Shown: piece by piece, positions 22,193 through 36,354 of the stretch
Numbering within the stretch: the first letter of the stretch is position 1
Layout: the number at the start of each line of letters is the position of its first letter
DNA from: a virus
IMG/VR virus record: IMGVR_UViG_3300032011_000001
Location: 62,001 to 126,000 of that record
Length of the DNA stretch: 64,000 nt
Strand: one strand, 5' to 3'
The notes under the pieces: model-generated
What the model saw: only the letters and a program-made list of their open reading frames with translations
Database searches by the model: none
What the model was told of the DNA's origin: nothing
Made by a program: the position numbers and the translations under genes

Positions 22193-23595
22193 TTATTCTG
22201 AAAAATACTTTATCTTTGGCATGCCAGTATATTTACAAGCTTCCTCCAGGGCAGCTCTTAGCATTTGTTCTCTCTTTTTGGGATCTTTCCAGTCCTCTTT
22301 CATTGACGGAGATAATGTTCGTAGTGGGTCAACATATGTAAATAATTTACCTCGCTTTACAGCAGGTGCCTTAAATACTGATATGCCAGTTTTTCGGTCG
22401 TAATGTTCGTAGCTGTGTGCATCTCTTTTTCCGCCACCGCCCATTGTATCCACAATAAACAAAGGAACATTAAAGCCTGCAGTAGAACCTCGGACTTCTT
22501 TCTCTAGGTCAATAGCTGTTTGGACTGTGGTTCTAAGATCTTCCGTTCCTCTAACCAAGTCGTGTACATAAACATAATATGGATGCACATTGATGTAACT
22601 TAGTTTCTTAATTAAGTCTCCCATGAGTTCTGGAGTGTCGTTTACTCCTGCCTGTAATACCGTTTGGTTGCGAACAGTGATACCCCTCTCAAATAATAGG
22701 TTCATGGCATCCTGAGAAATACCCGTCACTTCGTTTGGGGTATTGAAGTGAGTATGTATAACAACTTCTTTGTGAAGCTTTCTACCTCTCTCCACGATTT
22801 CAGTTACTGCGTCCGTCCATTCTGTGTCAGTTAAGATCTTCATAGGCTGAATGGCCAGACCCTTAGTGGCAAAGCGGAATCTCCTGACATGTGGAATATC
22901 TAACAATGCATGGCCCAACTCAAGAACTTGGCTTGGCTTTAAACGATACATGTCGCCACCGCTGATGACAATATCTTCTAGCTCTTTGCGTTCCTTAATA
23001 TACTGAAACGCCTTGTCCCATCTTTCTTGGTTTGCTTTGAGCTGTACTTTCTCGACGGTATCTGTATCTAAGCCAACAGCATAGGAGCGAGTACAAAAAC
23101 GACAATACACTGGGCATGTGTCCAGAGCTAGAAACAGGGCTTTGTCTGGGTATCTGTGAGTAAGGCCGTCAACAGGTGCATCGGCCTGCTCATGTAGTGA
23201 ATCCAAAGTTAGGAGAGGATGATCTTCTTCTAGTTGAGAGCCCACTGGAAGGAATTGCCTTCGTATAGGGTCTGTGTAGGGGTTTTCCCAATCAATGAGA
23301 GAAAGCAAATAGGGAGATATTCGAACTGCCATAGGTGCAGCACCAAAGCCAGCTTTGACATCTTCAATAAACTCTTCTGATACAATATCCTGAACTGCTG
23401 CTATGAGCTTCTTTGGTTTTGTGATAGCATTTCTCTCTTGCCACTTATGGCTCAAGAAAGTTTCTTCATCTATCTCTTTCCAAGCTGGTATTCTCTGCCA
23501 GAAGGCATCTCTCCTTAAATTTCTCCACGAAAGACTCTGTTCCGAAACTTTTGGCTTTAAGTGATTTACCTTCTCTTCTACTATCTTCAAACTCA
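22193..23595 (-). CDS. kamA: Lysine 2,3-aminomutase family radical SAM enzyme
   Basis: I start it at MSLKIVEEK, because GGAGG lies 6-7 nt before this ATG, giving 467 aa, near the family norm of ~420-470. The radical SAM cluster CxxxCxxC appears as CPVYCRFCTRSYAVG (~residue 158). PLP is bound by the Lys in DTMGGGGKRDAH (~385). Asp residues in VHDLVRGTEDLR and FIVDTMGG correspond to the two that hold the substrate side-chain amine in clostridial lysine 2,3-aminomutase. Also seen are VISGGDMYRL and VVIHTHFNTPNEV. The enzyme converts lysine to beta-lysine, or acts on a related amino acid. An EF-P-modifying EpmB-like role is an alternative. It has its own promoter just after the upstream terminator, like a cargo gene. 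Confidence 0.9.
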
Positions 23596-23616
23596 TAAGG
23601 GCCTCCAACATTGCAC

Positions 23617-26469: not shown

Positions 26470-27336
26470 TTATAAATTATCTAAATCAAGTTCAGGTTCT
26501 TCTTCAGCAGGCTCTTCAGTAGGTTCTTCTTCAGTACCTAAGTCATCTAAATTTAGATCCCCTAATCCTGCATCGTCTTCACCAGCAGATCCCAAGCCAA
26601 TATCACCACTAGAAACTTCTTTTTCTGCATCGTCATATTCAGGATTTGTTGGTTCATCTACGCTAGTTGAGAGCTCATCTTCAAATCTATCAAAATATAA
26701 TTTTAAGTTTGCAGTCAAATAGTCGTAGAATAGATCACTGTCAGAGGGATCAGCTAAGAGCTTGTAGGAGTCCAAGATGTTTTTTTCAATTTTCTGGAAT
26801 GTAACCATTGCAAAGTTACGACCAGTTTCATCAGCACCAGAGATGCCAAAAGAATCAGCGTCCTGCTTCTTACCGCCACTCGTTGTGATGTCGGGCTTTG
26901 TTTTTCCGTATATGTCAATGAACTTATTTAAGATGTTTTCATCTTCAACTTCATCTTCCATCACGACAGATGCATCTTCAGAGAGGCCAGACCTTTCCAT
27001 ACCAATTTCAGGCAACAATAAGTTTTGGACAGCCTTTACAATGTGTGCCCTAAAAGATTCCCTCTGTTCAGAGCTGGAGGTTAAAGTTTTAAAGTCTTGT
27101 TCGAGGACAGGAATAATTTTCTTTAATAATTTCTCTAGCTCGTTGATACCAGTGTTTTTGTGCGGAGAATTCTCTACATCTTCAGCAACCATCTTCTTGA
27201 TGGCTTTTCTAATTTCTGTCTCGCTGATAAGCTTCTGTAAAACTTCTACATCTTTTTCAGCAAACTTCTTTGCGACAGATTCTCTAATAGCTTTACGAAG
27301 GTATATTTCTTCGTGCATGTCTTTTCTACTAAGCAT
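26470..27336 (-). CDS. Acidic-tailed phage protein, probable structural or assembly factor
   Basis: The 288-aa product has a helical N-terminal half (RKDMHEEIYLRKAIRESVAK, LEKLLKKIIPVLEQDFKTL). A central part reads ENILNKFIDIYGKTKPDIT and GRNFAMVTFQKIEKNILDSY. The last ~70 residues are strongly acidic and low complexity (EEEPTEEPAEEEPELDLDNL). Acidic tails like this occur in scaffold and internal head proteins, so an assembly role is inferred. Its start overlaps the end of the ligase-like/adenylyltransferase gene by 8 nt. Confidence 0.6.
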   Translation of the reverse strand: MLSRKDMHEEIYLRKAIRESVAKKFAEKDVEVLQKLISETEIRKAIKKMVAEDVENSPHKNTGINELEKLLKKIIPVLEQDFKTLTSSSEQRESFRAHIVKAVQNLLLPEIGMERSGLSEDASVVMEDEVEDENILNKFIDIYGKTKPDITTSGGKKQDADSFGISGADETGRNFAMVTFQKIEKNILDSYKLLADPSDSDLFYDYLTANLKLYFDRFEDELSTSVDEPTNPEYDDAEKEVSSGDIGLGSAGEDDAGLGDLNLDDLGTEEEPTEEPAEEEPELDLDNL

Positions 27337-29401
27337 TTTTACGTCTCCTTCGAACCTTTTTGGTGGCCTTACCGCTGTGCCCTACAGCACTACCAATGGC
27401 CATTCCCGAAATTTCTTTAAGTTTTCTTTTTACAATTTTAATTTCTCTCTTCACCGGAACAACAGCGATCCCTTCAGCATCCTCCGGCTCGCTCTCTTCT
27501 TCAATACTGGCCCACCGTCTTCGTGTGGACGGATAAGCTTCGTTAACACATTGTAATACAATATCTTGTATTTCTTTACCTTCAATAGTTAAAGCCTCAT
27601 TCAGACCAATGTTAGATCTAAGCAAAGAAAATATTTCCATCGCATCGTCGCGCTTCGTTTTATCCTGGTAAATATCGGGCATCATTTTTAAAAATGTTTC
27701 AAAGTCATCTTCCCGAACCGAGTTGCGAACATCGGTGGCTCTTGCAAAACGACCTGCGACAACTTGGTCTATAACAATATCGTCCCTGTCTTTTCCAGCA
27801 TTATTGTATCTTCCGTCCTTGACATCATCTTCACCGATGACAAGAACAATGCGTGAGTTAGCCGGTGCATTATCAATATAGTCGTAAACAGCTTGTATAG
27901 GGGAAGGAACATCAGTTGTCATCAATTCATTATGAAAAAGGGGGATAATATCTCCCTGCAAACCATGATGCTCAACAAACAGTTCCCAAACCTGCCTTGA
28001 GAGCTCCGGAGAGAAGTTCTCATGCGTTTTCTCGGATATTGCCACTAACACCTCGTCCGTACTCTGCAAAGCCTTTAGAGCGGCGTCAAAGTGGCCTTTG
28101 TGTGGTGGCTTAAACTTACCTGGGAATAATGCGATGTTTAATGGTCTATCCGAACCTTCTTCTTTAATACTTTTAGGGTCTACCTTTTTGGTTCTACCAA
28201 ACTTTAAGATACCGAGTATTTGGTTTACGGGTGCAAAGTTTCCGGTAAACTTATATACGTTTCCTTTATAATTGAAAACAAAGCCCTCCGACGCAGTGGT
28301 GATATTGTCGAAGTCTTTAATTTTTGAAAGTTGCTTTCTTAGGATATTAAGCTCGCCTTCGTCATTAGCTGACGTGATGGCATCTATTGCTTGTTTCAAT
28401 TGCTTCTTTAATCTTTTTACCTCTGCTCTGTTGTCAAGGACATACATGCTATTGAGGTTCTTTAACATCTCTACGGCAAAATCATGAATAGTATCTTCTA
28501 GTGGATAAACAATCCCACTTAGCATCTTGGGGGATTCTTTAATAAAGTCTTTAACTGCGCTGCGAACACCAACATCATCCTTTGGGATCATTTTCATTAT
28601 TTGTGGAATACCTGCGCCTTTTACCTTAAAGACTCTTCTAATAACCTCGACACGAACATCATCTTCAATGCCCGGTATTGCTTCCCTTAATTTCTCATCC
28701 ACGTTCTTTACCATGAAATCACCAACAGTGTCTCCATCGCTAAGGTTGTTTCTGTCTAGCAAGCTATCTATCCTATCAAGAGCCTTATCCAAGTGTTTGC
28801 CGTCGGACAATGCTTTGAGTCGTATATAGGCGCTCACATGTACCTCATGTTCTCCCTGCTGGCCAAGCTCTCCTACCTTGTTGAGGATATTCTCGATGGT
28901 GGCAATATTATCATCATTCTCTAGCGGAGTCATTTCTTTTGTCTTGGGATCAATACGAACATGACCACTTCTATGTAATGTAATATATTTTCCGCCCAAG
29001 TTTACAACATTAGCAGTTCTTGGGTCCATTATTTCAACACTATAGAATTTGTCAGCATCACGTCCAAAGACTTTTCTCTGGGCCGAGTATGGAAGACTTC
29101 TACAGAAGTTCTCGAAAGCTGCAAGAGCCTCGGAAAAAGTAAACTCTAAGTCTCCTCTTCCCTTGAACTTATCCACTAGCTGGTCTACATCTAAGCCACC
29201 ATCTTTTATATTGGATTTATTTCTAGCAGAAACAGCTTTATCTCTCGCAATAGAGTAAGATACAAACAGGTTCTGTCCATCTGTCTTTTCTGTACCAACA
29301 AGTTCACCCTGACTTGCTTTGCTGAAAAGTTCTTTTATCTCAGCGAATGTCAAATCAGGGTTATCATGTAGGTGCATCAAGTGACCATAAAGTCCACCCA
29401 T
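27329..29401 (-). CDS. Fusion of an RNA/DNA ligase-like nucleotidyltransferase and an NMNAT-like cytidylyltransferase-fold domain
   Basis: The start MGGLYGHLMHLHDNPDLTF is chosen because AGGAG precedes it and its ATG overlaps the upstream TAA, giving 690 aa. The N-terminal domain has GTEKTDGQNLFVSY with the motif I lysine (K-x-DG, ~residue 39). Then come FYSVEIMDPRTANVV, EGFVFNYKGN (motif IV) and VYKFTGNF (motif V-like), as in covalent nucleotidyltransferases. From ~residue 425, IALFPGKFKPPHKGHFDAA carries the HxGH signature of adenylyl/cytidylyltransferases, with VLVAISEKTH and VLVIGEDDVKDGRYNN after it. The C-terminus is Lys/Arg-rich. Similar fusions are annotated in marine T4-like phages. 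End repair of RNA or NAD metabolism are candidates. Neither is shown. Confidence 0.82.
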   Translation of the reverse strand: MGGLYGHLMHLHDNPDLTFAEIKELFSKASQGELVGTEKTDGQNLFVSYSIARDKAVSARNKSNIKDGGLDVDQLVDKFKGRGDLEFTFSEALAAFENFCRSLPYSAQRKVFGRDADKFYSVEIMDPRTANVVNLGGKYITLHRSGHVRIDPKTKEMTPLENDDNIATIENILNKVGELGQQGEHEVHVSAYIRLKALSDGKHLDKALDRIDSLLDRNNLSDGDTVGDFMVKNVDEKLREAIPGIEDDVRVEVIRRVFKVKGAGIPQIMKMIPKDDVGVRSAVKDFIKESPKMLSGIVYPLEDTIHDFAVEMLKNLNSMYVLDNRAEVKRLKKQLKQAIDAITSANDEGELNILRKQLSKIKDFDNITTASEGFVFNYKGNVYKFTGNFAPVNQILGILKFGRTKKVDPKSIKEEGSDRPLNIALFPGKFKPPHKGHFDAALKALQSTDEVLVAISEKTHENFSPELSRQVWELFVEHHGLQGDIIPLFHNELMTTDVPSPIQAVYDYIDNAPANSRIVLVIGEDDVKDGRYNNAGKDRDDIVIDQVVAGRFARATDVRNSVREDDFETFLKMMPDIYQDKTKRDDAMEIFSLLRSNIGLNEALTIEGKEIQDIVLQCVNEAYPSTRRRWASIEEESEPEDAEGIAVVPVKREIKIVKRKLKEISGMAIGSAVGHSGKATKKVRRRRKNA

Positions 29402-29649
29402 TACTTTTTCTCCTGCAGAGGTTTTTGCTCTTCCTCTAAGACCTTCACCCTCTCTTGAAGCCTCTTCGCATGCTTGCGACATTGCTTGATGCTTTCTTTC
29501 GCAACCGCAATCCTTCGAGCCTCTTGCTTGGAAGCAGGTCTAATACTAGAAAGAATTTCTCCGACATGTTGAATATATTCCAACAAGCCAGGTTTGTCAA
29601 GTGACTCCCCCATGAGAAATCTTCTGGTCATCTTATCATAATCAATCAT
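29401..29649 (-). CDS. Small coiled-coil protein
   Basis: The 82-aa product begins MIDYDKMTRRFLMGESLDKPG and ends in a helix of heptad-like charged residues (CRKHAKRLQERVKVLEEEQK). It overlaps the next start by 1 nt (TAATG) and its own start overlaps the upstream stop by 8 nt, so it is tightly co-translated with the ligase-like fusion. No family recognised. Confidence 0.6.
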   Translation of the reverse strand: MIDYDKMTRRFLMGESLDKPGLLEYIQHVGEILSSIRPASKQEARRIAVAKESIKQCRKHAKRLQERVKVLEEEQKPLQEKK

Positions 29650-29860
29650 TAAGAATTTCCCTTATACTTCTAGCCTTCTTTTTGGGAGCTTCGACCACCT
29701 CTTCAACTACTTCTTCTTCTGCAGTCTCAACTTCGGCAACCTCTACGGGCTCCTCTACAACAACAACTCTCTTAGGAATAACCTCAGTTACTGTTTCTCT
29801 TTCTTGTTCTCTCAAGAGCATTGCTCTAGCTCTCTTCTTTCTTTGCTTTGGACTTGCCAT
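29642..29860 (-). CDS. Small protein with basic head, acidic-valine-rich middle
   Basis: The 72-aa product begins MASPKQRKKRARAMLLREQE. A low-complexity Val/Glu stretch covers residues ~25-55 (VVVVEEPVEVAEVETAEEEV), then KKKARSIREILND. The biased composition suggests a disordered or partner-binding peptide. It overlaps both neighbours. Function unknown. Confidence 0.55.
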   Translation of the reverse strand: MASPKQRKKRARAMLLREQERETVTEVIPKRVVVVEEPVEVAEVETAEEEVVEEVVEAPKKKARSIREILND

Positions 29861-31130
29861 ATCTAATCACCACCTTTCGTTTTTTATTTTCTCGTAACAT
29901 CCCTTCCTTAAAAGGGATATTGTTAATTTTAAATTCTCCTGCCAATGCCTGAAGGACTTGTTTGATAGCATCTCCGGGAATATTTCTACTTTTCATAGTG
30001 TCTTTAAGGGATTGGCTCCCTTTCACTTTAGTATTCCCCACTGCAGATGGACCTCTTGTTAGGGGTGCAGTTTTTGCATCGAGTTGCTCGTCGTCGCCTT
30101 TTAGCTTTGGCGCAACTTTCATATATTTGGAAAGAACGTTTTTCAGGCCCGTTGCTATGTCTGAAGGGTTTGGTATCTTGTCGTTTACTATATCTGTAAT
30201 TGCTGTAATCACTTCTTCATACTCAGCTCTGCTATTGATGAGAGCGAGTTGCCTTATCAGAGCGGGATTCTTTCCCATATAAGTTTGCAATCTCTTTGCA
30301 TCAGAAGTTTTGTACCCACCAAGAGCCTGCTCAATATCTGCCTTAACTGCCTCTTCGTTCATGCTTGTGAGTTTGTTTGTGAAGTTGAACACATTTGGTG
30401 CGGTCCAGGCAGCATTGGCTTTCCAATTGGTTTTGGTATTCCCCCAGTTTCCTTTGGCGGGATCAAAATAGGAATCCATAGCCCTAGCTAAAGATTTTAG
30501 GGCTCCTGGCTCTACGCCGGGATAATCTTTAAGCCACTTGATAATACCCAAAGTATCAATCTTTCCTTTTTCTCCTGCTAGCTTTAGAGGAGGATATTTA
30601 TCAGGAGCAAGTTCAACATCTGCAGGAACTTCTTTAGCAACAGCAGTAACATCTGTTGCATCAAGCTCGCCGTCCTGGGCGACCTTCTTAATGTTATCTA
30701 TAGCTTTCTCTGTTTCTTCTGGGGGCTTGTCGGCCAACATACCAGCAAGCTTGCCGAGGAGGTCCCTTGTATTACTTTGTAAATCAGTAAGACCAAGACT
30801 CGCAACTTGTTGCATAAGCCGATCAGCCTTTTCCTTATCGGACACTGGAGCCTCTTCCTTCTTTAGTTTTCCTGTTGAATGCCACCATTCGGCTGCAGCT
30901 TGATATAATTGTTTTTCAGCTTCAGGATCTGACATACCGGAAGAAGCAATATCCCATGCGTCTTTCCAGGCATCCTCGCCAGTGGAACCAACAACTGCTT
31001 GCTTGAAACTACTGAGTCTTTTGCTGAGAGAAACCTCGTTGAGAGTGTTATCTTTTTTCAAAGAAACACCTTGGTTCTCCAAAAGCCTTTCAAACAGCTT
31101 CAGGTTTCTTTTGTCAAAGACCTTCTTCAC
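29826..31130 (-). CDS. Hypothetical virion-associated protein with LLENQG N-terminal motif
   Basis: A GTG start at 31130 gives 434 aa and an N-terminus KKVFDKRNLKLFERLLENQG that matches the N-terminus of the gene just upstream (NNRNEKLFNRLLENQG). The GTG overlaps the preceding TAG by 1 nt. The body is soluble and mostly helical, with WHSTGKLKKEEAPVSDKEKA and a predicted folded stretch around TLGIIKWLKDYPGVEPGALK. It ends in Lys/Arg (RKVVIRYGKSKAKKEES). No known family. The shared N-terminal motif may be a targeting or docking peptide. Confidence 0.62.
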   Translation of the reverse strand: MKKVFDKRNLKLFERLLENQGVSLKKDNTLNEVSLSKRLSSFKQAVVGSTGEDAWKDAWDIASSGMSDPEAEKQLYQAAAEWWHSTGKLKKEEAPVSDKEKADRLMQQVASLGLTDLQSNTRDLLGKLAGMLADKPPEETEKAIDNIKKVAQDGELDATDVTAVAKEVPADVELAPDKYPPLKLAGEKGKIDTLGIIKWLKDYPGVEPGALKSLARAMDSYFDPAKGNWGNTKTNWKANAAWTAPNVFNFTNKLTSMNEEAVKADIEQALGGYKTSDAKRLQTYMGKNPALIRQLALINSRAEYEEVITAITDIVNDKIPNPSDIATGLKNVLSKYMKVAPKLKGDDEQLDAKTAPLTRGPSAVGNTKVKGSQSLKDTMKSRNIPGDAIKQVLQALAGEFKINNIPFKEGMLRENKKRKVVIRYGKSKAKKEES

Positions 31131-31543
31131 TACTCGTCTTCCTTCGTAGAACAATGAGCTTCGTCTACTTTTTCCTCGCCACTGAGCTTTGCGCCACAGT
31201 TCGTGCAGTGGTTGTTAGCTTTGCTATTCAAAGTTCCGCACTGAGGACAGTGCATGGCCATGATGCCTTCTCTAACTTCTTCTTGCTCTTCTTTCATCTC
31301 ACACTCACAAGGAGACTTGCCACACTTGGGACACACTTCGCCTTCAGTGACTTCTTTTTTGGCTTTTGCGTCTTTTGCAGCTTTTTCCATTGGCTCGTCT
31401 TTGTTGCCATCACCGTCGAGATCTCGATAATCAGGCTTCTTTTCTTCTTCCTTGATGGAACTCTCGTGTTTTAAACCTTGGTTTTCAAGCAGTCTATTGA
31501 AGAGTTTTTCATTTCTGTTATTTAATAGCTTATGTCGTTTCAT
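31130..31543 (-). CDS. Double zinc-ribbon protein with LLENQG N-terminal motif
   Basis: The product is 137 aa. Residues 1-24 carry NRNEKLFNRLLENQGL. Then comes YRDLDGDGNKDEPMEKA, an EF-hand-like or linker segment often seen in marine phage proteins. Next are two zinc-binding clusters: CPKCGKSPCECE (~residue 70) and MHCPQCGTLNSKANNHCTNC (~95-115). The second is a zinc ribbon of CxxC-x10-CxxC type. The shared N-terminus with the following gene suggests both go to the same complex. Function unknown. Confidence 0.65.
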   Translation of the reverse strand: MKRHKLLNNRNEKLFNRLLENQGLKHESSIKEEEKKPDYRDLDGDGNKDEPMEKAAKDAKAKKEVTEGEVCPKCGKSPCECEMKEEQEEVREGIMAMHCPQCGTLNSKANNHCTNCGAKLSGEEKVDEAHCSTKEDE

Positions 31544-31932
31544 TTTTTAATACTCCCGTATTTTATTCCATCTTCCCAATCTCGCAGGAGACAGTTACCT
31601 TCTAAGTAGGCTTCTTTTTCCATTAATCTCAAATGTTCGTTGTTTTGCATATATCCCTCTGTTGCAGGGCCAGCGTTATCAAACTCACCTCGACAGTTCT
31701 GTGCGTGATGTACCAGCTCGTGTGCAAGAGAACGCATACAGTCTTTCGGCTGTCTGTTTGTTGTGTATATCACAATCTTGTTTTCTGCAGGAGAATAGTG
31801 AGCAGTCATCCCCAATAATAGTTTAGCATTTTCAGGGTCATGACGCAATACGACTCTCACAGGCTTATTATATCCGAGGACACCCTGTGCATACGGAACG
31901 AATTCCTTTATCATATCTTTTAGATCTTTCAT
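31540..31932 (-). CDS. Putative zinc metallopeptidase (HELVH)
   Basis: This 130-aa protein contains CMRSLAHELVHHAQNCRGEF, with the zincin HExxH motif, and EHLRLMEKEAYLEGN about 30 residues later, offering a third (Glu) ligand as in gluzincins. Upstream ENAKLLLGMTAHYSPAENKIVIY is likely the edge strand. Similar short proteins occur in cyanophages and other T4-like phages and are probably intracellular. It might mature a virion protein. A TATAAATA-containing motif lies 4 nt before the ATG on the opposite strand. Confidence 0.75.
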   Translation of the reverse strand: MKDLKDMIKEFVPYAQGVLGYNKPVRVVLRHDPENAKLLLGMTAHYSPAENKIVIYTTNRQPKDCMRSLAHELVHHAQNCRGEFDNAGPATEGYMQNNEHLRLMEKEAYLEGNCLLRDWEDGIKYGSIKK

Positions 31933-31948
31933 GCATATAAATAGTATT

Positions 31949-32284
31949 TTATAGTGCTACTTGCACTAAAATAATGATTATACACAGTACAAGGCATATT
32001 CCGGTCTTAATTGTTACGGTTTCACCGAGAAAAAAATAGGTCATAAAAGTGAAAACAATTGTACCGATAGTAAAGCCCATGATGCGACAAGGCCAGAGAT
32101 TTTCCTCAAAAACTTCATAGCCAAGTCTCGTAGCTTGAATAAAGATATATGAAAATGGAATACCAAGGAGACACAGCAGCGGAGTGTTATCTCTAAAACT
32201 TTTCCAAACAAGTTGGCCACTACTCTGTAGCCAGACAAGAATATGCCCTAAGAATACTAAGCCAACAAATGTCAGGAGTTTCAT
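31949..32284 (-). CDS. Four-helix membrane protein, SMR/EamA-like
   Basis: The 111-aa product has hydrophobic segments at about residues 3-18, 35-52, 66-85 and 92-110. ATRLGYEVFEENLWPCRIMG lies in between, and the last two helices read VFTFMTYFFLGETVTIKTG and LVLCIIIILVQVAL. Size, helix number and the FLGE..T..GI pattern fit half-size drug/metabolite transporters (SMR-like). Similar membrane proteins exist in marine T4-like phages. What it moves, if anything, is unknown. Its start overlaps the stop of the long gene upstream by 1 nt. Confidence 0.7.
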   Translation of the reverse strand: MKLLTFVGLVFLGHILVWLQSSGQLVWKSFRDNTPLLCLLGIPFSYIFIQATRLGYEVFEENLWPCRIMGFTIGTIVFTFMTYFFLGETVTIKTGICLVLCIIIILVQVAL

Positions 32285-35200
32285 TACGCACCAGAGCCAG
32301 GAGGAGCACTCTTACTTCTCTTGGTGGGTGCAAGCTTGTGCCCCTTATCAGCCGTTTTTCCAGGAACTCTTATAAGCAGGCCCTTCCTCGTGGAGTGTTG
32401 TTTTTTAGCCGGACTATTCTGGTAGTCTTTTGCTTCTTGAGCTGGCTGTGGAGCTCCCAACGTTGCACCCACTGGCTCTCCTGCTTGGACACCTGCGAGC
32501 TTTCTGTCGGCATCAAAATTATTATCTCTTCTGATACTCTGAGGGTTCATCTTTATCCATCTCTCAGTAGCAGACTGAAGAGAGGCTTGCCAGAGCTTCC
32601 AGTGTTTGTCGAATAGTCTAGTTCCGTCAACAATAGCGTCGAGTTCTTCCTCGCTGTATTTGGAGAGTTCAACGGATATATCCATTTTAGCTGTTGTCTT
32701 ATAAACTATCATGTAACCCACCAAATCATTTCTTTCCGAAACATACATGATTCTATCAATGATATCGTCTGTGTCCTGCTCCTCCATACCTGGTAGAGAA
32801 GGCTGTCTTTGTAGAAGCTTTTGAAAGACATTTAGTCCTCTTCTGAGTATTTTCTGAGCTCCGTCATTACTTGGCCTATCACCAATAATTTGTGTCTTGT
32901 CTTGCTGTACTTCTTCCGGTGGTGGATAAGGAATACTAAATTCCATCTCGCCATTTTCCGGGTCAAAAGATATCAAGTGAAGATTCTTATATTGTTCTTC
33001 AAACTCATCCTGTAATTCTTTTGCAGTTTTATCTTCAACTTCTCTGCCGTCGTCTTCGGGGTCATATACTTGAACTTCAGCATTCTCACCCTGACCATAA
33101 AGCAAAGTATCATATTTTGTGAAAGGTAAAACACCTCCCTCAATGAGAGTTGCCCTTATTTTTCCTTGGCATGCTTCATATTTGTTATCGGGACCATACT
33201 CGACATTGTTGAAGAAGTCTTCTGCTCCTTCTATACCACTTTCTCCATAAAAAGAGCCATAGCATTCAATTGTTACTTTCACAGTTCTTCCACTAACGTG
33301 GATATCAATATACTGCATAAGATCTTGCATGATGGCCGGGTCTTCCTGATTGCCAATCATGAGGTTCTGATTTGCATCCTGAAACGCATCCCGAAGGGCA
33401 TCGAGCTCATACATATCCAAGTCTTCTTTCCCGTCAAACTCTCCTGAGTCGTAGATAAAAGATATCGTTGCTTCCACATTGATAGTCATATCTTCGTAGT
33501 CGTCGTATGTATCGAAAGCTAGCGATATTCTATTTCCATGATCGAGGCGCTGTTCTGCTGCTTCCATTATCTCTTTCAGTTTACTATCGTAATCAATCAT
33601 CTCATAATCGAATACAGTATCAAACCTACCTTCAAAGCCATTGTCTTTAAGTACATCTTTTAATTTACCATGTAATATTTCAAACTCATCCCCGCGCACA
33701 GGAGTATCTGTTACATCCATAAACTGCTTTGAACCATAATGAAACTGGAATCTGTCTCCGTCATCTTCGGGATCATCACGAGTATCTCCCGGAGTATGGA
33801 TATAAAACAACGGGTCATCCTCGCCACCGTAGTATTGATTAAAATAATCTAAGCCAGGAGAAGCAGTGCACCAGCTAGTCTTTTTACCTAGTAAACATGC
33901 AGCGCCCTTTCCATGAGCTGCAGCAATAACCCAGCCATCCTTACTTCTTCTAAACTGAGGGATGCCCTGCTCGTCTCGAAGAACTTGGCCCTTGTCATCT
34001 AACTTATACCCACCAGCGAAAAACTCTGTTCTGCCAACAGCATCATTTGCCATCTTCTTGTCGTTTTCTGCATCAATAGAAGCCTGTCCAGCTTTGACGA
34101 CATCATCTAGCATTTCTTTAGTTTTTATTTGCCCGATGTCAGAAACTTTCATATGTCTTGGGTGCTGAAAGAACGTTTCGAAGTTCTGACGGATAAGTAT
34201 AGCATCACGGTTGGCCAGCGGGTACTGTCCTGAGAGTATTCTGTCTCTCAGCTCAGTGTCTGTTTTAAGATACCTCAGCCACCAAAATATTATCTGAGCT
34301 CGGTTTGAATCTTGTATGGATTTGTGTTTCTCCGGTTGGTGGGTGCGAGAAATGTTACCAGGAACTACATCTGCCGGAGTATATGTCAGAGATATTACTG
34401 AATGCAATTTCTTGTGTAGTCTATTATAGTCATCACCGGGATCTTTACCTTGATCAAAGTTATAGCTTTTGATAATCTTCTTTCCGGCTTTGCCTCCGAG
34501 GGAACTCATTGCGTCGTCAAGACTGACTTCTTGCAACAACTCCTCTCCAAGTAGTTTTACTAAAATTCTTTCTTCTAACTTCATAGCACTTTCCTCTAGA
34601 CCTAACTGGCCCATAATAGCATCAATACTGTCTCGCGTACCTACGAGCTCTTTTTCTGGAGCCTCTCGCGGATGATTCTTTATCCACTCTTTCGCAAGTT
34701 TTGTAAACTCTTTAAAAGCTTTCACGTCCATCTTTTCGGGCCACTCATTAGCGGCGGGACCGGTCGTTGCTGGCAAATCTGAACTCAACGAATGTGAGAA
34801 GTTTCTCAAATCGCTGATAGCACCTGCATAAAGCCTATCCATTTCTTCTGCTGGAATTTTGCTTTCGGGGTCTGTGATCATCACTGACCAGCGCATGTCC
34901 ATAATAATATATTCTTGCTTTCCTTTGCGGCCAGTAATATCAAGCTTTGGTTCTCTTATTTTGGCCTTGAAAACTCTATCCACAGGAACTTCGCCATTAT
35001 CATATTTTTCCTTACCACTGTTGAATGTATGTAATGCAACGCCTTCAACCATCTTAGAATATTCAGGAAGGTCCATTTTCATTCGGAGGTAACTCACAAA
35101 CTGCTCGTTCCTTGATCTGTCGTTACCTCGGAATTCCTCGTGTCCTGTCATCTTCTCATAACCACCGATTTCATCTGGTATGGGCAAATAAACAAAATTC

Positions 35201-36354
35201 TTAATATTTGCAACGAGCCTTCCAGCTTCAACCTCAGTGGCAGACATATATGCGTGTGCACTTGGTTTGTCCGGAGCTTCGTTGTGTAGGGGAAGAACTT
35301 TGTCGTGATAGTTGCTTTCCCATTCTTTAGTCAACTTGTCCATCAGGTCTGAATATTTCTTTTGACGTGATGCTGCAGGGTTTGGGTTTTTCTCTAGGTC
35401 ATCTTCCAGTGTATCAAGCAACACATCCACCATCATTTCTATCTTGTCTTCTTCAACACCCCAAGCTTTAAGAGCACCATCAAGAAAGTCAATGTCGTGC
35501 TGCTTATCTTCTGCGTCGAATATTTCCATCCGACCGTTGGCGTTGAACACAAGCGCGACTTTATCGTAGCGAGTTCGATCTTTAGTCTTCGTCGGCTTCT
35601 TTTCTTTCCCAGGTTTTTCTTCTCGACCGATAAAGGGGAGAAGTTCGTGGTATTTTTTGATGAGGTTTGTGACTCTGTTGCGAGCAAACAACTCTCTTCT
35701 TCCGCTGACCTTGCCATCGTCGTCCAGCACAACTATATCATTTGCGTTTTTAACCATCCAGGCTAAATATTTGTTTTTTCCAGAAGGGTCTTCTTGTGAC
35801 ATCTTGTCAATACCCCTTGGGCCACTGTATGTCTTATTCCAGTCTTCATAATCTGATAGAACCCATTGGGGGTATTTCTTTTTTAAGTCTTCGAGTTTGC
35901 CTTCAAACAGGTCGTCGAGCTGAGCGTTGAAGTCTTCAACCTCATCATCAGACATGTCTCCTGCTCTACCAGCATCAACACTTTTCGGAAGAATGTAATA
36001 GAGAGTTACGCCATGACGGTTATAATATCTATCAAACATATTTGATTCTTTGGAACCAGCCGTACACCACTTTGTCCCAGAACCATAGTGACAAGAAGCT
36101 TCTGTTGTTTTCGGTGCGACAATTTGAAATGCATCACTAGGACTTTCTACTTTTCTGTATTCTTCTGGGGGAACACTTTTCTTTGCTTTCTTTTCTTGAG
36201 AGGCTTTCTTTAAGCTTGCGGCCTTCTGAATGACGACTCCCATTTCCCTGGGGGTGAGAGTAGTGTGGTCTTTAGGGTTTGACTTCTTTCCTTCTTCTAT
36301 CTCGTTGTCTGGCTTTCTTGTTATTTTAGCATATATCTTTTCTTCTAATTTCAT
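32284..36354 (-). CDS. Giant protein with two WCTA-type domains (tandem duplication/fusion)
   Basis: The 1356-aa product has two halves. Half 1 (1-590) starts MKLEEKIYAKITRK and shows AFQIVAPKTTEASCHYGSG followed by TKWCTAGSKE and YNRHGVTLYYILPKS. Half 2 starts at Met591 with MKLEERILVKLLGEELLQEV, and later WVIAAAHGKGAACLLGKK, TSWCTASPG, YFNQYYGG, PLFYIHTPGD. The WCTA...F..YY...L(Y)YI domain recurs in proteins of marine T4-like phages and is uncharacterised. Both halves begin with near-identical codons, and an AGAGGA site precedes codon 591, so an internal product of 766 aa is possible. The many acidic surface residues and size suggest a virion or assembly protein. Confidence 0.7.
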   Translation of the reverse strand: MKLEEKIYAKITRKPDNEIEEGKKSNPKDHTTLTPREMGVVIQKAASLKKASQEKKAKKSVPPEEYRKVESPSDAFQIVAPKTTEASCHYGSGTKWCTAGSKESNMFDRYYNRHGVTLYYILPKSVDAGRAGDMSDDEVEDFNAQLDDLFEGKLEDLKKKYPQWVLSDYEDWNKTYSGPRGIDKMSQEDPSGKNKYLAWMVKNANDIVVLDDDGKVSGRRELFARNRVTNLIKKYHELLPFIGREEKPGKEKKPTKTKDRTRYDKVALVFNANGRMEIFDAEDKQHDIDFLDGALKAWGVEEDKIEMMVDVLLDTLEDDLEKNPNPAASRQKKYSDLMDKLTKEWESNYHDKVLPLHNEAPDKPSAHAYMSATEVEAGRLVANIKNFVYLPIPDEIGGYEKMTGHEEFRGNDRSRNEQFVSYLRMKMDLPEYSKMVEGVALHTFNSGKEKYDNGEVPVDRVFKAKIREPKLDITGRKGKQEYIIMDMRWSVMITDPESKIPAEEMDRLYAGAISDLRNFSHSLSSDLPATTGPAANEWPEKMDVKAFKEFTKLAKEWIKNHPREAPEKELVGTRDSIDAIMGQLGLEESAMKLEERILVKLLGEELLQEVSLDDAMSSLGGKAGKKIIKSYNFDQGKDPGDDYNRLHKKLHSVISLTYTPADVVPGNISRTHQPEKHKSIQDSNRAQIIFWWLRYLKTDTELRDRILSGQYPLANRDAILIRQNFETFFQHPRHMKVSDIGQIKTKEMLDDVVKAGQASIDAENDKKMANDAVGRTEFFAGGYKLDDKGQVLRDEQGIPQFRRSKDGWVIAAAHGKGAACLLGKKTSWCTASPGLDYFNQYYGGEDDPLFYIHTPGDTRDDPEDDGDRFQFHYGSKQFMDVTDTPVRGDEFEILHGKLKDVLKDNGFEGRFDTVFDYEMIDYDSKLKEIMEAAEQRLDHGNRISLAFDTYDDYEDMTINVEATISFIYDSGEFDGKEDLDMYELDALRDAFQDANQNLMIGNQEDPAIMQDLMQYIDIHVSGRTVKVTIECYGSFYGESGIEGAEDFFNNVEYGPDNKYEACQGKIRATLIEGGVLPFTKYDTLLYGQGENAEVQVYDPEDDGREVEDKTAKELQDEFEEQYKNLHLISFDPENGEMEFSIPYPPPEEVQQDKTQIIGDRPSNDGAQKILRRGLNVFQKLLQRQPSLPGMEEQDTDDIIDRIMYVSERNDLVGYMIVYKTTAKMDISVELSKYSEEELDAIVDGTRLFDKHWKLWQASLQSATERWIKMNPQSIRRDNNFDADRKLAGVQAGEPVGATLGAPQPAQEAKDYQNSPAKKQHSTRKGLLIRVPGKTADKGHKLAPTKRSKSAPPGSGA

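Follow-up and report, generated by a model that had tools for sequence, protein, structure and literature searches.

The gene at positions 27329-29401 (minus strand) of the stretch studied here joins a domain resembling RNA ligases to a nucleotidyltransferase domain of the HxGH type, the type found in nicotinamide mononucleotide (NMN) adenylyltransferase (NMNAT). The stretch, hereafter the window, is 64,000 nucleotides long and corresponds to G000:C1:62001-126000 of a 158-kb and possibly incomplete record (IMGVR_UViG_3300032011_000001) of an uncultured T4-like virus of bacteria. Most likely, judging from the sequence, the ligase half seals broken RNA via a lysine-AMP adduct, and the product of the HxGH half is a dinucleotide, for instance nicotinamide adenine dinucleotide (NAD). 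We propose, with middling confidence, that a phage enzyme for RNA repair is coupled here to one of NMNAT type, the two forming an RNA-repair/NAD cassette that is packaged in the head and proteolytically processed. An earlier note on this DNA had described the fusion at the same coordinates, which are correct: the open reading frame (ORF) reads open from the ATG at 29401 to the stop at 27329.

27329..29401, minus strand: whole gene, ligase-like domain + HxGH nucleotidyltransferase + basic tail, 690 aa (100% match to G000:C1:89332-91401)
28190..29401, minus strand: covalent-nucleotidyltransferase (RNA-ligase-like) domain, residues 1-404 (AlphaFold2, Foldseek, PF09414, hhalign)
27590..28144, minus strand: HxGH nucleotidyltransferase domain (NMNAT/PPAT fold), residues 420-604 (PF01467, TIGR00125, Foldseek)

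With five aligned sequences as the query, IMG/VR yielded at least 577 related stretches, from which 80 loci were kept; alignment statistics refer to 84 homologous domains, most of them ∼28 to 45% identical to the window domain. The following features of the ligase-like domain were located with this alignment and with the structural model.

29372..29383, minus strand: H7-x-x-H10 signature after the N-terminal MGG (both His invariant in the 84 domains)
29270..29290, minus strand: motif I, E38-K39-T-D-G42-Q-N44, with K39 the predicted nucleotidyl-lysine (alignment; counterpart of EKIHGTN in T4 Rnl2)
29222..29224, minus strand: R60, equivalent of Rnl2 R55, invariant (alignment and hhalign)
29033..29035, minus strand: E123, motif III candidate, Glu in 83/84 and Asp in 1/84 (alignment; strand 118-125 in the AlphaFold2 model)
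28319..28798, minus strand: all-helical insert between motifs III and IV, residues 202-361 (∼160 residues; DSSP on the AlphaFold2 model, predicted local distance difference test score [pLDDT] >90 over most of it)
28274..28288, minus strand: motif IV, E372-G-F-V-F (E372 and F376 100% conserved)
28247..28255, minus strand: Y383-K384-F of the motif V-like V-Y383-K384-F-T-G (Y383 and K384 100% conserved)

H7, H10, G32, E38, K39, D41, G42, R60, F89, F112, and N131, and further along E372, F376, Y383, K384, G387, F389, N393, and Q394, are invariant in the 84 domains. Together with E123 (Glu in 83), they include the residues that a covalent nucleotidyltransferase should have in its motifs I, III, IV, and V, as well as the Arg after motif I. 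Such strict conservation across divergent domains is far beyond chance, and therefore, judged from the alignment, the ligase motifs are not a chance resemblance. The nucleophilic Lys of motif I, the Glu of motif III, the EG of motif IV, and the Lys of motif V occur in the order that characterizes the superfamily. A mutated catalytic lysine pocket, which the earlier note had named as grounds for abandoning its reading, is not what the sequences contain, as K39 never varies.

AlphaFold2 modeled the whole protein with a pLDDT of 84. Among the matches listed, a Foldseek search with the full-length model gave HxGH structures only, and the ligase half was therefore modeled separately, with a pLDDT of 91 and a predicted template modeling (TM) score of 0.89. 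The top three PDB matches of this model were T4 Rnl1, and those that followed included an archaeal RNA ligase, the African swine fever virus ligase complex, a tRNA ligase, the Naegleria RNA ligase, and a capping enzyme. In BFVD, the domain matched phage proteins annotated as "cytidyltransferase-like" with TM scores of 0.86 to 0.88 (best match, unnamed, 0.91) and at least a dozen viral RNA ligases with E values of 1e-5 to 1e-2. Structure prediction, one of the checks that had been proposed for the fusion, returned a ligase-type fold, with ligases heading the PDB list and frequent in BFVD, at modest scores.

The relationship is also visible at the level of profiles. PF09414 (RNA_ligase) was matched by 12 of 70 relatives, with a best E value of 4e-5, and any other Pfam family by at most 3; the gathering cutoff was not reached (21.1 bits against 27 for the relative L034), and the window protein gave no match to this family. 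Residues 1-404 had no convincing match to a Pfam or PHROG family, and a sequence-only search of the PDB with the ligase profile found nothing meaningful. With hhalign, the family aligned to the T4 Rnl2 family with a probability of 35% and an E value of 4e-4, placing EKTDGQN over EKIHGTN and pairing K39 with K35, N44 with N40, and R60 with R55. As controls, the accepted ligase families Rnl1 and Rnl2 gave 15% with each other, and an unrelated portal/terminase control 0.3%; the window family had no significant match to Rnl1 (1.8%). Like the Rnl2 family (PF09414), the window domain has an EKxxGxN motif I, a later Arg, the EG of motif IV, and a motif V Lys, but its motifs III and IV are set apart by the ∼160-residue helical insert, the Rnl2 C-terminal domain is lacking, and K-x-T stands in place of K-x-K. 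T4 RNA ligase 1, the best match among solved structures, is likewise a covalent nucleotidyltransferase with an extra all-helical region. In Rnl1 this region follows motif V, whereas in the window domain it lies between motifs III and IV. We conclude that the domain is a divergent ligase-type nucleotidyltransferase whose nearest relatives are RNA ligases and which falls outside every named ligase family.

A second family appears to share this architecture. The ligase model matched a 591-aa protein of cyanophage S-PM2 (Foldseek E value, 3e-5), which agrees in length and annotation with S-PM2d138, a fusion of DUF6267 (PF19782, 1.6e-111) to CTP_transf_like; in many cyanophages a DUF6267 gene (T4-GC71) directly precedes that of a cytidylyltransferase (T4-GC190). 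As in the window protein, an N-terminal domain is thus followed by CTP_transf_like. DUF6267 also has the layout of the window domain, with an HxxH near the N terminus in most members, KWDGAP (KxDG), EG(F/Y)V, and a Lys 12 residues further on, and the spacing of motifs I to IV is ∼320 to 333 residues in both families. Unlike the window family, DUF6267 lacks the Glu before the motif I Lys and the GGxxGH start. The window family showed no profile match to PF19782, with an hhalign probability of 1.7%, so we base the link on fold and motif layout and claim no membership. By analogy in fold, layout, and partner, DUF6267 may itself be a ligase-type nucleotidyltransferase.

The C-terminal half is more readily placed.

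28091..28126, minus strand: HxGH motif, FPGKFKPPHKGH, residues 426-437 (sequence and relatives)
27725..27745, minus strand: ARATDVR, residues 553-559, in the place of ISSTxxR (sequence)

This half passes the Pfam cutoff for CTP_transf_like (PF01467; 22.6 bits against 21, residues 425-460) and that of TIGR00125 (cyt_tran_rel; 31.2 against 27.7), and its Foldseek matches are NaMNAT, NMNAT, and PPAT (E value, 2e-4), placing it in the HxGH nucleotidyltransferase superfamily. In relatives, SASDMR or SGTxxR stands in the place of ARATDVR. The fold, the HxGH, and the ISSTxxR-like motif are shared with NMNAT, NadM, and PPAT, but the fusion here is to a ligase-like domain and not to a Nudix or kinase domain. 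Phage NAD systems (NadV, NadM-Nudix, and NadR) likewise include a phage-encoded HxGH adenylyltransferase and, as far as the available text of two reviews goes, its fusions are to Nudix or kinase domains and none is to a ligase (PMC7824862, PMC9503650). The joining of motif I, motif IV, and a motif V-like element to an HxGH domain, as first read from the sequence, therefore holds. A match to "NadR" of Flavobacterium phage immuto was rejected as a family member since it has no ligase domain.

The two domains are rarely found apart. Among flanked members, the extension follows the ligase domain in 31 and precedes it in 48. A single BLAST cluster, the one with the HxGH domain, takes in 77 of the 79, and the other two belong to ORFs cut by a contig end. 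The HxGH domain thus accompanies the ligase domain in both orders, which are separated by one change on a quick tree. Because the pairing is kept in almost all relatives and in either order, the functions of the two halves are, on this sequence evidence, very likely linked. GenBank phages gave matches in 3 of 50,697 records (tblastn), Microcystis phage Mel-JY01 and two uncultured phages of 462 and 484 kb; in Mel-JY01 the HxGH domain comes before the ligase, LR756508 has a ParB-like domain, HxGH, and ligase in that order, and LR756500 has the ligase domain alone. Some HxGH-ligase polyproteins carry further domains (CCA-adding head in 2, HD in 5, Nudix in 3, and P-loop kinase in 3), as expected of RNA-end repair. 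In one ORF (L042, 5998-9357), ∼490 residues of unrelated sequence part the ligase and HxGH domains. The eight matches among bacterial and archaeal genome contigs all come from metagenome-assembled bins, nearly all on short contigs; they look like binned phage DNA, and a cellular origin of the family was set aside. A literature search limited to open-license papers, and hence weak as evidence, found no paper naming DUF6267 or reporting a ligase-HxGH fusion.

New in this analysis is the context of the invariant Gly-Gly at the start of the ligase domain, which is preceded either by a Met with a ribosome-binding site or by the Glu of (L/I)-x-E|GG. In 82 clear GGxxGH starts, the residue before GG is Glu in 44, Met in 35, and another in 3, and where it is Glu the residue two positions before is Leu (32), Ile (9), Val (2), or Met (1). 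This is the cleavage pattern of T4-type prohead proteases; in T4, gp21 cleaves Alt after ITE and LTE (PMC5694885). The Met-GG cases have purine-rich ribosome-binding sites ahead, including an in-frame AAAGGAGTTATTATTAATG within long ORFs, which would allow an internal start for the ligase. In the loci L041, L040, L050, L054, L059, and others, the ligase domain is immediately preceded by a conserved in-frame AAAGGAG-N9-ATG within ORFs of up to 1458 codons; the ligase may therefore be made there both within the polyprotein and alone. Met and Glu before GG have switched at least 9 times on the tree. As different routes, a start Met or a cut Glu, lead to the same N terminus, the sequences suggest that a free N-terminal Gly-Gly is needed.

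Similar sites lie between the domains.

28160..28168, minus strand: I-K-E, residues 412-414, in the ligase/HxGH linker, candidate prohead-protease site (linker comparison)

At its domain borders, the window protein has only two such candidates, this IKE and an LNE at residues 600-602; the strong signal at the GG boundary is that of relatives. In clade 1, 28 of 29 linkers contain [LIVM]xE against 15.6 expected from shuffles. The description of the product as one polypeptide may consequently fail in the infecting particle; in another clade, a ligase with its own internal start or LxE|GG cut site speaks against it. At the start of many clade-2 polyproteins there is a short amphipathic leader with (L/I)xE at its end, resembling capsid targeting sequences (PMC9958956). 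T4 Alt and internal head proteins, together with phage polyvalent proteins, resemble the window family in short leaders and (L/I)xE maturation sites, which are candidate sites in this family, and in several effector domains per polypeptide and predicted co-injection. The available text of a polyvalent-protein survey names no ligase-HxGH fusion and does not associate its 2H domains with RNA ligases (PMC5512222). A gene for an S77 (Peptidase_S77) prohead protease is present in the same phage record (G000:C1:12444-12992; E value, 3e-34). Adjoining it is a 142-codon ORF (L118, G000:C1:11725-12150, minus strand) whose leader, MNKKKLTEVLKPIIKECISEMLLEEG, is similar to those of the clade-2 polyproteins. 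Published virion proteomics of cyanophages gives independent support for packaging: the cytidylyltransferase T4-GC190 was detected in S-SM1 virions (PMC3037559), a cytidylyltransferase in those of S-CREM2 (PMC10665884), and NMNAT in those of S-SCSM1 (PMC9602691) and, as cited there, S-CBWM1. Taken as sequence evidence, the sites and leaders suggest that the family cassette is head packaged and cut by the prohead protease.

In the mechanism that we favor, the domains would travel as a capsid-targeted cassette, and the T4-type prohead protease would cut the (L/I)xE sites in leaders and joints before injection, exposing an N-terminal Gly-Gly on the ligase and separating the domains. The ligase-like domain would use ATP for self-adenylylation at K39 and transfer the AMP to RNA ends with a 5'-phosphate, which could then be sealed; host tRNAs cut by anti-phage anticodon nucleases are one example. 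The HxGH domain would join ATP to a mononucleotide, NMN for instance, and so replenish the NAD of that infected cell. The motifs and their conservation, the fold class, the pairing in both orders, the Gly-Gly context, and the protease gene are observed; the RNA, ATP, and NMN substrates, cleavage, and packaging are predicted from them. A broader version is tentative and on the doubtful side. In it, the family would be a widespread class of RNA-repair polyproteins that phages carry with them, and its ligase would represent a new covalent-nucleotidyltransferase family, active only with a free Gly-Gly and always accompanied by an NMNAT-like partner. Packed in the head and separated by prohead-protease cleavage, the enzymes would be injected and mend RNA and NAD ahead of phage gene expression.

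Several observations weigh against this mechanism. The ligase-like domain reaches no ligase family cutoff, and its PDB matches in Foldseek are weak (E value, ∼3e-3; TM score, ∼0.2), the low scores probably arising because the helical block of residues 202-361 sits between motifs III and IV. The second Lys of the Rnl2 motif V K-x-K is absent (T386), as is the C-terminal ligase domain, so nucleic acid sealing is not assured. For the HxGH half, NMNAT equivalog cutoffs are missed by far (PRK01153, 21.5 against 127 bits), and searches of the 158-kb record, which may be incomplete, found neither an NAPRTase nor an AAA_33 kinase. The window protein starts with MGG and has no cleavable leader, [LI]xE is a short motif, and the linkers are rich in Glu. 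Finally, the proteomics covers only the HxGH half, in diverged relatives from cyanophages, and its authors allow for carry-over.

An NAD-based coupling of the halves can be envisaged, in which the ligase domain takes NAD as its adenylate donor and releases NMN, from which the HxGH domain regenerates NAD with ATP. The constant pairing of the two domains in both orders would fit this scheme, as would the NMNAT and NadM models among the HxGH-domain matches and the NMNAT fold at the top of the Foldseek results. We consider it quite improbable, since only ∼35 residues, including the HxxH, precede motif I, with no LigA-type Ia domain, the neighbors of the domain are ATP-dependent RNA ligases, and the protease-type sites in the linkers make a tight channel between the domains doubtful. 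A LigA-type identity was set aside on account of the missing Ia domain, and Pfam matches of the window protein up to an E value of 10 included no NAD-ligase family. Of the original interpretation, the union of a ligase-type domain with an NMNAT-like domain is supported and NAD-linked ligation is not. Alternatively, two independent enzymes, both injected, might share one delivery cassette with no chemical coupling, the HxGH domain rebuilding NAD against NADase defenses and the ligase repairing tRNA. The protease-type sites or internal starts between the domains point this way, together with the unrelated domains found in the same polyproteins and the separate adjacent genes for DUF6267 and the cytidylyltransferase in most cyanophages, but the nearly invariant pairing suggests more than shared delivery, and the NAPRTase missing from the 158-kb record also tells against a scheme that we regard as somewhat unlikely.

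The divergent motif V, the lack of a C-terminal OB-type domain, and the new helical insert would also be compatible with a different chemistry, such as RNA capping or tagging, or AMPylation of a protein or small molecule, with no end sealing. For capping, which had been raised before, the weak fold match to a capping enzyme in the PDB is the sole positive evidence. RNA ligases are the best neighbors in both sequence and structure, and the association with CCA-adding, HD, and kinase domains likewise makes such chemistry unlikely. A virion core component that keeps its enzyme folds as relics, in a structural role, would agree with the position of the gene near head genes in one clade and with the detection of relatives in virions; this reading is highly improbable, given that the catalytic residues stay invariant in deeply diverged members in which the remainder varies.

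The RNA-repair/NAD cassette reading offers a candidate ligase-type nucleotidyltransferase identity for a domain family that no Pfam or PHROG model picked out in this analysis and that hundreds of contigs from uncultivated phages encode. By analogy, it would extend that identity to DUF6267 of the abundant T4-like cyanophages. It also suggests a possible reason why NMNAT-like "cytidylyltransferases" recur in cyanophage virions, where they may make up one of the two halves of a repair cassette that is injected. Should packaging be real, phages would bring RNA repair along and would not have to wait for expression, with a bearing on how they survive tRNA-cutting and NAD-depleting defenses.

The gene is closely flanked on both sides.

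29410..29414, minus strand: ribosome-binding site AGGAG, 8 bases 5' of ATG 29401 (sequence)
29401..29649, minus strand: small upstream gene, whose family is the -1 gene in 16 relatives (neighborhood comparison)
26470..27336, minus strand: downstream gene, 288 aa, TGINxLxxLLKK family (sequence and relatives)

ATG 29401 overlaps the stop of the upstream gene (TAATG), and with the AGGAG ahead of it the 690-aa ORF therefore looks translationally coupled to that gene. The domain encoded downstream is fused C-terminally in several relatives (e.g., L009, L012, L027, L034, and L035). This fusion, the (L/I)xE sites, and the alternative domain order go beyond what the earlier note had reported around the gene. 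The 158-kb record contains three tRNA genes.

Further upstream, the neighboring genes at 29826-31154 and 31130-31543 (minus strand) have a common N-terminal LFxRLLENQG, possibly a shared targeting leader. The gene at 31540-31932 (minus strand) encodes an HExxH metallopeptidase-like protein, and a similar stretch is fused in a polyprotein of phage immuto (L097, 907 aa) with Pol-beta-like and HxGH domains. A 1356-aa protein (32284-36354, minus strand) carries two copies of a GxGTKWCTA/GKKTSWCTA-type stretch and also shows an apparent internal second N terminus (MKLEERILVKLLGEELLQE). The product of 22193-23611 (minus strand) is a radical SAM protein like lysine 2,3-aminomutase, unusual for a phage, with Radical_SAM and LAM_C both below the cutoff. 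Between 4693 and 18933 (minus strand), carbamoyltransferase, aminotransferase, glycosyltransferase, and PhoH-like genes follow in series, probably a surface-sugar module plus PhoH.

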